Made by a program: the position numbers and the translations under genes. The notes under the pieces were generated by a model. It had not been told where the DNA came from. It saw only the letters and a program-made list of their open reading frames with translations, and did not search any database. Shown here piece after piece: positions 33,301-60,300 of a stretch of 64,000 nucleotides of DNA. The stretch covers positions 2,608,001 through 2,672,000 of the forward strand of contig NZ_CP007440.1 of the NCBI RefSeq assembly GCF_001579845.1, read 5' to 3'. Origin of the DNA: Rhodoplanes sp. Z2-YC6860. GTDB lineage: Bacteria > Pseudomonadota > Alphaproteobacteria > Rhizobiales > Xanthobacteraceae. How positions within the stretch are numbered: the stretch's first letter is position 1; each line of letters begins with the position of its first letter.

Positions 33301-36300
33301 CGGCGCCGGAGCGTGGCCCATCGGAGCTCCCGCACCGCGCACCGCGGACGCCTGCGGAGGCTGTGCTGTGCGCGCTGTTCGCCGAGGTGCTGGGCGTGGA
33401 GCGGGTGGGTCTCGACGACGACTTCTTTGCGCTGGGCGGACATTCTCTGCTGGCGATGCGTCTGATCGGACGGGTGCGAGCGAGCCTCGGTGTGGAGGTC
33501 GCGATCCGGAGCCTGTTCGAGGCGCCGAGCGTGGGTGCGCTGGCACGGCGGCTCACATCGGAGAGCGCAGCGCTGCGGGCGCCGCTGCAGGCCGTCACCC
33601 GCCCCGCCGAGGTGCCGCTGTCGTATGCGCAGCGGCGGCTGTGGTTCCTGGACCGGCTGGAGAGTGGAACGGAAGGCCGCCCGCTTGACGAAGCCCCAGC
33701 ATCGGGCAGCGGCACCTACCTGATCCCGGTTGCTGTGAGACTGTCTGGCCCGCTCGACCGCGGAGCGCTGCAAGGCGCGCTGAACGACCTGGTGGCACGT
33801 CACGAGAGCCTGCGGACGGTGTTCCCGGAGACGGGGGGCGTGCCGCGGCAGGAGGTGCTGCCACCGGAAGCGGCGCGGCTTGGGCTCGAGATCACTACTG
33901 TGAGCGAAGACGAGCTTGCATCGGCACTGAGCACAGTGGCAAGCCGCGGCTTCGATCTGGCGCATGAGCTGCCGCTGCGGGCGCAGCTGTTCGCGGTCGA
34001 GAGCGCCAGCACTGATGGGAGCGCAGAGACGGAGCCGCAGCAGGCCACGGAGCATGTTCTTCTGCTGGTGCTGCATCACATCGCGGGCGACGGCTGGTCG
34101 CTGCGTCCGCTGCTGCGGGATCTGGGCGCACTGTACCGGTCACGGCTTACAGGCCAGGCAGCGTCGCTTCCTGCATTGCCGGTGCAGTATGCGGACTACA
34201 CACTGTGGCAGCGCGACGTGCTGGGCGAGGAGGGCGTCTCCGACAGCGCGATCGGGGCGCAACTCGCGTACTGGAAGGAGGCGCTAGCCGGCCTCCCCGA
34301 GCAGATCGAGCTTCCCACGGATCGGGCGCGGCCCGCGGTGTCGAGCCACCGCGGCGGGCATGTTCCGATCCGGCTCGATGCCGATCTGCACCGGCAGCTG
34401 GTGGCCTTGTCGCGGCGCACGGGTTCGAGCCTGTTCATGGTGCTGCAGGCGGGTCTGTCTGCGCTGCTGACGCGGCTGGGGGCGGGCACCGACATCGCGC
34501 TGGGCAGTCCGATCGCGGGGCGGAGCGATCCTGGGCTGGACGAGCTGATCGGGTTCTTCGTCAACACGCTGGTGCTGCGCACCGACACGTCGGGCAACCC
34601 GTCGTTTACGGAGCTGATCGGTCGGGTGCGGGGCGGCAACCTGTCGGCCTATGCGCACCAGGACGTGCCGTTCGAGCGGCTGGTGGAGGTGCTCAATCCG
34701 CAGCGGTCGCTGTCGCGTCATCCGCTGTTCCAGGTGATGCTGGCGTTCGAGACCGAGGACGGAGCGGCGGGGGCGCTGCAACTGCCCAACCTGACGGCGC
34801 GCCCGCAGCCGGTGGCAACGACGGCTGCGAAGTTCGACCTGTCGGTGGCGCTCCTCGAGCGTCGGGGCCCGAACGGCGAGGCCTCGGGCATCGAGGGCGT
34901 GCTGGAGTATGCGGCCGACCTGTTCGAGCGCGAGACCGTGGAGCGCATCGGCCAGCGTCTGATCCGTCTCCTGCAAGCTGCAGTCACGGACGCATCGCGT
35001 CCGATCGGCAGCCTGTCGATCCTGGATGCGGACGAGCGTGCGACGATCCTGGAGGGCTGGAACGCCACGGCGCGGCCGCTCACACCGGCGACGCTGCCGG
35101 CGCTGTTCGCAGCACAAGCCGCCCGCACGCCGGAGGCGACCGCGGTGGTGTTCGAGGACCGCGAGCTGAGCTACGCGGCGCTGGATGACCACGCCAACCG
35201 CCTGGCGCAGCACCTGCAGAGCCTGGGTGTGGGACCCGAGACGGTCGTGGGTCTGTGCGTGGAGCGTTCGCCCGAGATGGTGGTGGGGCTGCTTGGCATC
35301 CTGAAGGCGGGCGGCGCCTACCTGCCGCTCGATCCGAACTATCCGCGCGAGCGGCTGTCGTTCATGCTGGCCGACGCCGCAGCACCGGTGCTGATCACGC
35401 AGCAGGCGCTGCTGGAGAAGTTGCCGGAGCTTGCCGCCGCCGGCCGCCACGTGGTGCGGCTCGACGCCGACTGGCCGCTGATCGCAAGGCAGCCCGCGAC
35501 GGCACCAACGACCGCGCTCGACCCGCGCCACCCGGCCTACGTCATCTACACCTCGGGCTCGACAGGAACGCCGAAGGGTGTGGTGGTCGAGCATGCGAAT
35601 CTCGCCAACAAGACGGTAACGCTCGGTAGGCAATTTGGAATTGGAGTTGGTCATCGGATCGCGTTGTTGAGTTCTTGCGCATTCGACCCGTCCATTGAGC
35701 AGATCACGATGCCTTTGGTCGGCGGCGCGACGATCGTCGTTGTGGACGATATCACGCGTGAGACGCCACAGCTGATCTGGGATCAGATGGTGCGGAACAG
35801 AGTCAATCTGTTGAACTGCACGCCTTCATTTTTCGGTTCAATCATCGCGGACGCGTCGCAGACAGCTTCGTTTGATCATCTGGTGTTGGGTGGAGAAATT
35901 CTCACCACTGATTTGCAGAGAGAAATTGCCCGGACGGTCAATGTTGGGCGCGTGACGAATCTTTACGGGCCGACCGAAACCACGATCGATGCCATCGGTC
36001 ACGTGCTCGTTGGCGATGAAGCTGGTCCGCACGTTCCCATCGGCCGTCCACTTCCCAATTACCGGGCGTACGTCCTGGACGTGTCACTTGAGCCAGTTCC
36101 ATCGGGCGTTGTCGGCGAGCTTTACGTTTCGGGTCTTGGTTTGGCGCGTGGGTACCTGCGGCGTGCTGGTCTGACGTCTGAGCGTTTTGTGGCGGACCCG
36201 CATGGCGGTGCGGGTGCTCGGATGTACCGGACGGGGGATCTGGCGCGTTGGCGTGCCGATGGCGTGCTGGAGTTTCTGGGCCGCGCGGACGAGCAGGTGA

Positions 36301-57300: not shown

Positions 57301-60300
57301 TTGCGCTGGGCGGACATTCTCTGCTGGCGATGCGTCTGATCGGACGGGTGCGAGCGAGCCTCGGTGTGGAGGTCGCGATCCGGAGCCTGTTCGAGGCGCC
57401 GAGCGTGGGTGCGCTGGCACGGCGGCTCACATCGGAGAGCGCAGCGCTGCGGGCGCCGCTGCAGGCCGTCACCCGCCCCGCCGAGGTGCCGCTGTCGTAT
57501 GCGCAGCGGCGGCTGTGGTTCCTGGACCGGCTGGAGAGTGGAACGGAAGGCCGCCCGCTTGACGAAGCCCCAGCATCGGGCAGCGGCACCTACCTGATCC
57601 CGGTTGCTGTGAGACTGTCTGGCCCGCTCGACCGCGGAGCGCTGCAAGGCGCGCTGAACGACCTGGTGGCACGTCACGAGAGCCTGCGGACGGTGTTCCC
57701 GGAGACGGGGGGCGTGCCGCGGCAGGAGGTGCTGCCACCGGAAGCGGCGCGGCTTGGGCTCGAGATCACTACTGTGAGCGAAGACGAGCTTGCATCGGCA
57801 CTGAGCACAGTGGCAAGCCGCGGCTTCGATCTGGCGCATGAGCTGCCGCTGCGGGCGCAGCTGTTCGCGGTCGAGAGCGCCAGCACTGATGGGAGCGCAG
57901 AGACGGAGCCGCAGCAGGCCACGGAGCATGTTCTTCTGCTGGTGCTGCATCACATCGCGGGCGACGGCTGGTCGCTGCGTCCGCTGCTGCGGGATCTGGG
58001 CGCACTGTACCGGTCACGGCTTACAGGCCAGGCAGCGTCGCTTCCTGCATTGCCGGTGCAGTATGCGGACTACACACTGTGGCAGCGCGACGTGCTGGGC
58101 GAGGAGGGCGTCTCCGACAGCGCGATCGGGGCGCAACTCGCGTACTGGAAGGAGGCGCTAGCCGGCCTCCCCGAGCAGATCGAGCTTCCCACGGATCGGG
58201 CGCGGCCCGCGGTGTCGAGCCACCGCGGCGGGCATGTTCCGATCCGGCTCGATGCCGATCTGCACCGGCAGCTGGTGGCCTTGTCGCGGCGCACGGGTTC
58301 GAGCCTGTTCATGGTGCTGCAGGCGGGTCTGTCTGCGCTGCTGACGCGGCTGGGGGCGGGCACCGACATCGCGCTGGGCAGTCCGATCGCGGGGCGGAGC
58401 GATCCTGGGCTGGACGAGCTGATCGGGTTCTTCGTCAACACGCTGGTGCTGCGCACCGACACGTCGGGCAACCCGTCGTTTACGGAGCTGATCGGTCGGG
58501 TGCGGGGCGGCAACCTGTCGGCCTATGCGCACCAGGACGTGCCGTTCGAGCGGCTGGTGGAGGTGCTCAATCCGCAGCGGTCGCTGTCGCGTCATCCGCT
58601 GTTCCAGGTGATGCTGGCGTTCGAGACCGAGGACGGAGCGGCGGGGGCGCTGCAACTGCCCAACCTGACGGCGCGCCCGCAGCCGGTGGCAACGACGGCT
58701 GCGAAGTTCGACCTGTCGGTGGCGCTCCTCGAGCGTCGGGGCCCGAACGGCGAGGCCTCGGGCATCGAGGGCGTGCTGGAGTATGCGGCCGACCTGTTCG
58801 AGCGCGAGACCGTGGAGCGCATCGGCCAGCGTCTGATCCGTCTCCTGCAAGCTGCAGTCACGGACGCATCGCGTCCGATCGGCAGCCTGTCGATCCTGGA
58901 TGCGGACGAGCGTGCGACGATCCTGGAGGGCTGGAACGCCACGGCGCGGCCGCTCACACCGGCGACGCTGCCGGCGCTGTTCGCAGCACAAGCCGCCCGC
59001 ACGCCGGAGGCGACCGCGGTGGTGTTCGAGGACCGCGAGCTGAGCTACGTGGCGCTGGATGACCACGCCAACCGCCTGGCGCAGCACCTGCAGAGCCTGG
59101 GTGTGGGACCCGAGACGGTCGTGGGTCTGTGCGTGGAGCGTTCGCCCGAGATGGTGGTGGGGCTGCTTGGCATCCTGAAGGCGGGCGGCGCCTACCTGCC
59201 GCTCGATCCGAACTATCCGCGCGAGCGGCTGTCGTTCATGCTGGCCGACGCCGCAGCACCGGTGCTGATCACGCAGCAGGCGCTGCTGGAGAAGTTGCCG
59301 GAGCTTGCCGCCGCCGGCCGCCACGTGGTGCGGCTCGACGCCGACTGGCCGCTGATCGCAAGGCAGCCCGCGACGGCACCAACGACCGCGCTCGACCCGC
59401 GCCACCCGGCTTATGTCATCTACACCTCAGGCTCGACAGGAACGCCGAAGGGTGTGGTGGTCGAGCACGGGAGCCTCGTCAACAAGATGCTGGCGCTCGG
59501 CCGGCAGTTTGACGTGGATGAGAATTTCCGTGCCGCAATCTTCATTTCGTCGTCGTTCGACGCCTCGATCGAGCAGACGCTGCTGCCGTTCATGGGAGGC
59601 GGCGCGGCCGTCATCATCAGCGACGACGACCGCGAGGCACCAGAACAATTCTGGTTCGAGCTCGATCGTGCTGCAGTCACCTTCATGAGCTGCGTGCCGT
59701 CCTATCTCGAAAGCATCTTGCATCAAGTCCCGGATTCGCTCGCGCTGAAGCATCTTGCGCTGGGCGGCGAAGCTTTCTCGCCGCAGTTCAAGGACAAGGT
59801 GGCGCGTCAGCTTGCCAACGTGCAGATCACCAATCTCTACGGTCCAACCGAAACGACGATCGACGCGATCTCGCGCACGGTCGGCGACGAGACCGGCTCC
59901 AATGTTCCGATTGGTCGCCCGATGCCGAACTATCGGGCCTATGTGCTGGATGACGGCCTCGAGCCTGTTCCTGCGGGCGTTGTCGGTGAGCTCTATATCG
60001 CGGGGCTTGGTCTGGCGCGGGGCTATCTGAACCGCGCGGGACAAAGTGCAGAGCGGTTTGTCGCCGACCCGCATGGTGCGCCGGGCGTACGGATGTATCG
60101 AACGGGCGACCTGGCGCGGTGGCGCTCCGACGGCGTGCTCGAATTCCTCGGCCGTGCCGATACGCAGCTCAAGCTGCGTGGCTTGCGCATCGAGCCCGGT
60201 GAGATTGAAGCTGCGTTGCTGCGGCAGGGGAGTGTCGCACGTGCCGCCGTGATCGCCCGTGAGGACGTGCCCGGCATCCAGCAACTTGTCGCCTATGTGG

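Follow-up and report, generated by a model that had tools for sequence, protein, structure and literature searches.

Near-identical scaffolds around divergent specificity cores in the adenylation domains of a Rhodoplanes nonribosomal peptide synthetase gene

A 64,000-nucleotide (nt) stretch of the Rhodoplanes sp. Z2-YC6860 genome (contig NZ_CP007440.1, positions 2,608,001 to 2,672,000; hereafter the window) carries a long nonribosomal peptide synthetase (NRPS) gene in which adenylation (A) domains with very different specificity cores sit in scaffolds of nearly identical DNA. We consider it likely, at a probability of about 0.7, that this is a repeated-module gene under concerted evolution, in which recombination within the gene has homogenised the scaffolds around older cores. 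This reading draws on the identity of the scaffolds, the sharpness of their edges, a conflict between the trees of core and scaffold for A8, A2 and A1 (A domains are numbered by module), and the presence of tracts of different ages within the gene.

A preliminary description of this DNA held that the A domains of modules 2, 4, 6 and 8 are the same DNA up to the A3 motif, then differ for about 430 bp, and in modules 2, 4 and 6 become identical again before the A6 motif. A base-level comparison of the borders bears this out, and the positions given at the time were correct to within a few bases. Identity among the four domains is 99-100% as far as a single base shortly after the A3 motif, the last common base being 35593 in A2, 43561 in A4, 51532 in A6 and 59467 in A8. 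A8 shows three differences in the final 104 bases before this border, all synonymous, and A2 and A6 have three further bases in common beyond it. Identity among the four cores is 42-56%. At the 3' side full identity resumes between A2 and A4 at 36032/43997 and A6 joins 34 bases later, at AYVLD (36066/44031/51972); this border is spread over more than one base position. A8 never rejoins the others and is 68% identical in the 3' scaffold. Identity plotted in 30-nt windows over A2, A4, A6 and A8 showed the same sharp pattern. In the 5' half of the domain A2, A4 and A6 stand at 100% (90-96% in the first window, at 35010) and A8 at 93-100%, within the core the six pairs fall to 16-83%, mostly below 60%, and after it A2/A4 and A2/A6 are back at 100% through the end of the compared stretch. 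In the tract that follows the core none of 3678 sites, and none of 824 four-fold degenerate sites, differs in any of the three copy pairs among modules 2, 4 and 6.

To compare core and scaffold histories we used pieces of an orthologous gene with matching downstream DNA, present in four (G001, G004, G006 and G007) of the ten other genomes of the genus. Trees were built for 16 A domains, leaving out the A8 fragment of G001. The cores were treated as protein (16 rows) and the scaffolds as DNA, with 14 rows in the 5' tree (G006_A8 and G007_A8 are too short) and 15 in the 3' tree (G006_A3 is too short). The 16-core tree has long unrelated branches; the placements of A3, A4, A5 and A6 in it were not used, and it gives no firm position for A2 and G006_A3. 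A second core tree, limited to nine cores of the A1/A2/A8 type, was made both as protein and as DNA.

In nucleotides the A8 core shares 73-77% identity with its A8 counterparts in three genomes of the genus; its identity with A2 is 56%, and with A4 and A6 42-43%. In the 16-core tree A8 pairs with G004_A8 with a support of 98/91, and adding G007_A8 and then G006_A8 gives 97/93 and 92/97; a single clade of A2, A4, A6 and A8 is rejected (P value of the approximately unbiased test, p-AU, 1e-6). The four A8 cores also stand together in the nine-core trees (97/95 as protein, 100/99 as DNA). The 5' scaffold tree disagrees, placing A8 with A2, A4 and A6 (100/99) and rejecting A8 with G004_A8 (p-AU 0.015). 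At four-fold sites of this scaffold A8 differs from A2 at 2 of 129 positions and from G004_A8 at 41 of 105. Here, as in the trees, paralogs within the gene are closer than orthologs between species, as expected under concerted evolution. The 3' scaffold tree returns A8 to G004_A8 (94/92). On this sequence evidence the A8 core is vertically inherited and the 5' scaffold around it is the part that was exchanged within the gene.

A similar disagreement was observed for A2 and A1. In the nine-core trees A2 groups with G006_A3 (100/99 as protein, 99/99 as DNA), and the specificity codes agree with the core trees, being DPENVGLID in A2 and DPENVGLVD in G006_A3, with DAESAGLID in four of four A8 domains. 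The 5' scaffold of A2, in contrast, is 99.1% identical to A8 and 68.5% to G006_A3. For A1 the 3' scaffold falls with A3, A5 and A7 (97/96), and a group of A1, G004_A1 and G006_A1 is rejected (p-AU 7e-6). The discordance of core and scaffold trees for these three domains suggests that their cores are older than the scaffold identity, so that A8 and A2, and probably also A1, would hold an older history in the core than in the scaffold around it.

The preliminary description interpreted the pattern as substrate-core replacement. Where this could be tested it did not stand: for A8, A2 and probably A1 the core goes with its counterparts in the relatives and one of the flanks with other modules of this gene, and in none of the three do we find a core that goes with another gene or module in flanks that go with the ortholog. 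For A4 and A6 a replacement may have occurred. Modules would then have been duplicated first, and foreign blocks reaching from the A3 to the A6 motif would have entered A4 and A6 by double recombination at these conserved motifs. We regard this as unlikely. The edges are indeed sharp and lie at conserved motifs, the A4 and A6 cores come from families other than that of A1, A2 and A8, cores 2, 4 and 6 are low in G+C at third codon positions (GC3), and exchange of A cores is a published route in the passages of Baunach et al. 2021 (PMC8097286), Calcott et al. 2020 (PMC7486941) and Booth et al. 2022 (PMC9205934) that concern it. However, the identities and trees speak against it for A8, A2 and probably A1. 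Zero differences in the flanks of A2, A4 and A6 would also place any swap in the very recent past, and the samples searched yielded no near donor.

The search for donors, core by core, had been proposed with the preliminary description and returned no near donor for A4 or A6 in the genomes and loci sampled. In samples of 398 genomes of the phylum for each of the two cores, the window's own genome included, the best match was 49% identical in amino acids (aa) to the A4 core and 57% to the A6 core. For A6 the best match rose to 65% among 79 NRPS loci, which were collected by a scan of genome contigs with the C-terminal 486 aa of the gene product (at least 79, counted among the matches listed, with records of the window's own genome possibly omitted). 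Among these listed loci L045 alone was close to the query. The identifiable donor that a replacement calls for is thus missing from these samples, the best relatives standing at 49% (A4) and 65% (A6). No A4-type core was found at E<=1e-20 in the other 197 of 198 genomes of the family, ten of which belong to the genus and are fragmented in this gene. Within the genome itself only two other A domains were found at E<=1e-30, at 33-40% aa identity to A6.

Base composition was considered as proof of foreign cores and rejected for this purpose, as the A2-type core in G006 is equally low. GC3 is 62.8 in the A2 core and 64.9 in the G006_A3 core, and low values in both speak for an old core.

The gene also contains tracts of different ages that meet at sharp ends. 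Its repeat units are dimodules with a period of 7.94-7.97 kb. At four-fold sites, units 1 and 3 differ at 38 of 181 positions in the N-terminal half of the condensation (C) domain and at none of 298 just after it. The corresponding edge lies in the module 6 C domain near position 50,114; upstream of it there are 100 differences in 900 sites, downstream 1-4 in 1344. A5 is divergent from A3 and A7 over a longer stretch, with a gradual onset in the 5' half of the domain. Such edges away from the cores, in mid-C domain and at A5, indicate that the process is not core-specific. In a permutation test with the core columns excluded the longest identical run between units 1 and 3 was 4233, against a maximum of 612 in 2000 permutations, and the older tract in the N-terminal half of C6, lying beside tracts nearly free of differences, suggests that identity was imposed piecewise, at least in unit 3.

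It could be argued that a single recent tandem amplification of the dimodule (C-A-T-E-C-A-T, with T thiolation and E epimerisation domains), without conversion and followed by point changes and imports, would give both the regular period and the 0/3678 differences in the shared tract. We find this very improbable. Clean copying would have duplicated the cores too, in unit 3 a tract that differs at 38/181 four-fold sites adjoins others that show no such difference, and the A8 scaffold takes part despite a vertical core and 3' part. Assembly is also difficult across exact repeats as long as 3.7 and 6.9 kb, and reads of similar modules might have been mixed and made identical in the consensus during assembly or polishing. 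An artefact of this kind seems extremely unlikely to us, as the genome is a single 8.19-Mb contig with the frame open across 10376 codons, and both a tract of 11% divergence and isolated synonymous differences have been preserved. In addition, the contigs of G001, G004, G006 and G007 that carry the 3' end of the gene start inside module 8, as they would for real repeats, albeit in bins that are fragmented anyway.

In the concerted evolution proposed here, modules of the one gene would recombine by homology and so copy long tracts over each other, one running from C into the 5' half of A and the other from the 3' part of A through T and E to the next C. We infer gene conversion as the route, probably together with unequal crossing-over, which would also have set the number of modules. 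The scaffolds of high identity would pair, the 430-bp block of 42-56% identity would not be crossed, and the tracts would stop at the core edges because the cores are too different to pair. A tract that ends where homology ends would leave one common 5' border after the A3 motif and varying 3' borders. Recombination across a core would alter the product and was presumably removed by selection, which would have kept the cores in place; the identity of A3 and A7, whose cores are included in a 6917-bp exact repeat, is a possible case of recombination having passed through a core. A4 and A6 would share this history. A8 and G004_A8 are 80.5% identical in the 5' scaffold, 77.1% in the core and 79.4% in the 3' part, and since the 5' scaffold of A8 is as near to G004_A8 as the rest of the domain, A8 may have donated this scaffold to modules 2, 4 and 6.

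Several observations weigh against this interpretation. Among the 10 other genus genomes, in 60-550 contigs each, none holds a complete copy of the gene, and the A4 and A6 cores cannot be placed by orthology. The A1 core joins G004_A1 weakly (81/72 in the 16-core tree, 82/82 in the nine-core DNA tree) and is unsettled in the nine-core protein tree, and A1 with G004_A1 alone survives in the 3' scaffold tree (p-AU 0.064, G004_A1 being half-length there). G004_A8 is the sole relative with a full A8 5' scaffold, and the visible modules of G006 are not homogenised, with 80% identity beside the core. Cores 2, 4 and 6 have a GC3 of 62-66 where the 5' scaffold next to them has 88, which could also mean a foreign origin; six other genes of the window have 77-85. 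Lastly, the run test is non-significant for units 1 and 2, with 195 of 2000 permutations reaching the observed run (these units have three differences only); for units 1 and 4 the figure is 13 of 2000.

In the G006 gene (locus L120) module 2 has a different core type and lacks an E domain, and module 3 bears the core nearest to A2 here; this different module order indicates that modules were gained, lost or moved within the genus. We also noted contig ends near core borders in relatives (loci L095, L096 and L120). In G006 contig C249 begins 79 nt before the A3 motif and C315 stops about 132 nt beyond the end of the core, and in G007 contig C229 begins 87 nt before the motif. These ends would fit assembly breaks at core borders, and with them repeated scaffolds in the relatives, and were not taken as proof, because G004 and G001 break elsewhere and no second copy of a contig end was found in the four genus genomes searched, which are fragmented.

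Concerted evolution and recombination in A cores are both already published for NRPSs. In those of Medema et al. 2014 (PMC4256081), internal recombination homogenises repeated polyketide synthase and NRPS domains within a cluster, and domains escape through functional divergence or insufficient similarity, the NRPS cases being daptomycin, A54145 and CDA. The present gene is alike in that repeated domains are homogenised and some escape. It differs from the domain trees given there in that a single A domain contains both homogenised and escaped parts and the border between them can be set to the base. Calcott et al. 2020 (PMC7486941) describe, in the part concerned, recombination hotspots between the A2 and A4 motifs and from near the A5 motif; the corresponding part of Baunach et al. 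2021 (PMC8097286) has the C-A linker and A sub-domain retained and parts of the A core varying, in exchanges that are mostly longer than the short block seen here, which runs from the A3 motif to just before the A6 motif. In both of these accounts the core moves, as detected against orthologs, whereas here the core stays wherever orthologs exist. The wollamide/desotamide gene wolG1, in the sections of Booth et al. 2022 (PMC9205934) devoted to it, belongs to paralogous NRPS genes that are alike except in mid-A domain, with a donor in the same genome, and its authors point out that gene conversion can blur such histories. Our gene shares the confinement of the difference to the middle of the A domain and, unlike wolG1, has no donor that we could find in its own genome. 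The natural block also matches in kind the unit of engineered recognition-subdomain swaps (Kries 2015 and Thong 2021, as outlined in PMC11355689; Cruesemann 2013 and Hofer 2011 on hormaomycin, among the references of PMC7486941). Unlike engineered swaps it is natural and lies in one gene, the full scaffold carrying three different cores and its 5' half a fourth. In polyketide synthases, repeats with intense nucleotide skew (GRINS) are associated with gene conversion. Our literature search returned nothing combining intragenic gene conversion with nonribosomal peptides, and nothing, judged by title, on this gene for Rhodoplanes with nonribosomal peptide synthetase.

What is new here is homogenisation and escape within single A domains, with the scaffold as the moved part wherever this is testable. 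Sharp-edged core differences on identical scaffolds are easily taken for core swaps and used as engineering templates. The same picture can arise from homogenised scaffolds around old cores, and orthologs are needed to distinguish the two. If our interpretation is true, one scaffold (C-A linker, A 5' half, A 3' part, T and E) bears three quite different cores, presumed functional from the open frame, which would offer a natural hint to tolerated borders. A further idea, speculative and in our view quite unlikely, is that the gene acts as a self-maintaining cassette platform, in which continual homogenisation keeps scaffolds interchangeable and core borders identical, memory of position would reside in the cores alone, and one homologous exchange would be enough to move a core. 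In that case concerted evolution would ease changes of specificity, and borders at the A3 and A6 motifs would be its product and not its cause.

How unusual the pattern is can be judged from the 79 loci, as a guide only, since these were picked by likeness to this gene, non-randomly, and the limits set for the flanks differ slightly between the two comparisons. We compared 130 within-locus pairs among 149 A domains from 69 of the 79 loci. Both flanks exceed 90% in 4 of the 130, with cores of 86-100%, and one flank exceeds 90% with a core below 70% in 2. In our gene 3 of 28 A-domain pairs have both flanks at >=99.7% and cores at 42-45%. The gene is an unusually clean member of a published kind.

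Specificity codes were read by alignment to GrsA (1amu). They differ by core, and the earlier statement that the scaffold stays constant and the core varies is correct, with specificity expected from the codes to follow the core. By known code tables DILQLGLIW (A3, A7) would be Gly-like, DVWHISLID (A5) Ser-like and DASTIAAVC (A6) Tyr/Phe-like, and the A1, A2 and A8 codes would resemble those of formyl-hydroxyornithine domains (hydroxyornithine-like for A2). These last codes would suit a hydroxamate siderophore; no siderophore receptor or ornithine monooxygenase was present among the 20 window proteins scanned with Pfam, which cover part of the reading frames. The preliminary description had also staked its reading on the cores not being closest to each other, and here the answer is divided. 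A1, A2 and A8 form one core family (A1-A8 57.8%, A1-A2 47.3% and A2-A8 39.5% aa identity), and the A4 and A6 cores belong to others. No match to A1 from outside the genus among the 79 listed loci (best 40% aa) is as close as A2 and A8, and the A2-A8 identity is roughly level with the best outside matches there (38-39% aa); matches of 59-65% at locus L045 are the genus mate G006 itself.

The features of the gene are collected in Table 1. Its C, A, T, E and thioesterase (TE) domains are collinear within one gene, as in type I modular NRPSs. Eleven condensation-type PF00668 matches were found, three of which are weaker, sited after T in modules 2, 4 and 6, and were assigned as E. The A, A-C-terminal and T domains were matched and the motifs located, and the last T is followed by a thioesterase (PF00975) at the end of the protein.

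Table 1. Coordinates of the NRPS gene and its parts within the window.
Feature	Position	Strand	Remarks
NRPS gene, 10376 aa	30363..61493	+	one stop-free open frame; Pfam domains, motifs
Module order C1-A1-T / C-A2-T-E / C-A3-T / C-A4-T-E / C-A5-T / C-A6-T-E / C-A7-T / C-A8-T-TE	30363..61493	+	
A1 core, DAESAGLID(K)	32307..32740	+	nearest is G004 A1, 74.5% nt
A1 3' scaffold	32775..33264	+	94-96% to A3/A5/A7; 71% to G006 A1; 87% to half-length G004 A1
A2 5' scaffold, C-A linker to A3 motif, common to modules 2, 4, 6, 8	35040..35593	+	99.0-99.8% among A2/A4/A6/A8
A2 specificity core, DPENVGLID(K)	35594..36031	+	groups with G006 A3 core, 100/99
A2 3' scaffold-T-E-next C, shared tract	36032..39747 (39748)	+	exact copy at 43997-47713
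6917-bp exact repeat, A2 3' part to C4, with whole A3 (= A7)	36066..42982	+	equals 51972-58888
A3 core, DILQLGLIW(K)	40260..40712	+	identical to A7 core, 56166-56618
A4 5' scaffold	43008..43561	+	identity to A2/A6/A8 5' scaffolds
A4 specificity core, DSALIAEVW(K)	43562..43996	+	best outside relative 49% aa
A4 3' scaffold-T-E-next C	43997..47713	+	copy of 36032-39748
A5 core, DVWHISLID(K)	48237..48692	+	divergence from A3/A7 begins earlier, in A 5' half
A5 3' part, T5, N-half of C6; tract probably outside last homogenisation	48693..50113	+	19/435 (A5 3' part) and 100/900 (C6 N-half) differences to other copies
A6 5' scaffold	50979..51532	+	identity to A2/A4/A8 5' scaffolds
A6 specificity core, DASTIAAVC(K)	51533..51971	+	best-scoring solved relative GrsA PheA, 1amu
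A6 3' scaffold-T-E-next C	51972..55654	+	copy of shared A2/A4 tract
A8 5' scaffold	58914..59467	+	99% to A2/A4/A6; 80.5% to A8 of genus mate G004
A8 specificity core, DAESAGLID(K)	59468..59902	+	vertically inherited on identities, trees and code
A8 3' part, T, TE	59937..61493	+	no sharing with other modules; follows genus orthologs

Directly upstream of the gene, on the same strand (26884-29975, +), are an ABC ATPase and then an SPFH/Band 7 protein. Downstream, at 61783-63125 (-), lie a DUF697 protein and a ParA/VirC1-like ATPase; contigs of G001, G004, G006 and G007 match this stretch in full or in part. Adjoining the NRPS at 17878-25755 (-) we observed a CHASE2/guanylate-cyclase protein, HlyD, an ABC transporter and an outer-membrane efflux protein in succession, followed by a 4'-phosphopantetheinyl transferase; these genes are likely to be the activation and export set for the peptide. 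The genome as a whole has at least 150 genes for TctC solute-binding proteins (150 of 462 candidates were scored and 150 of 150 matched).

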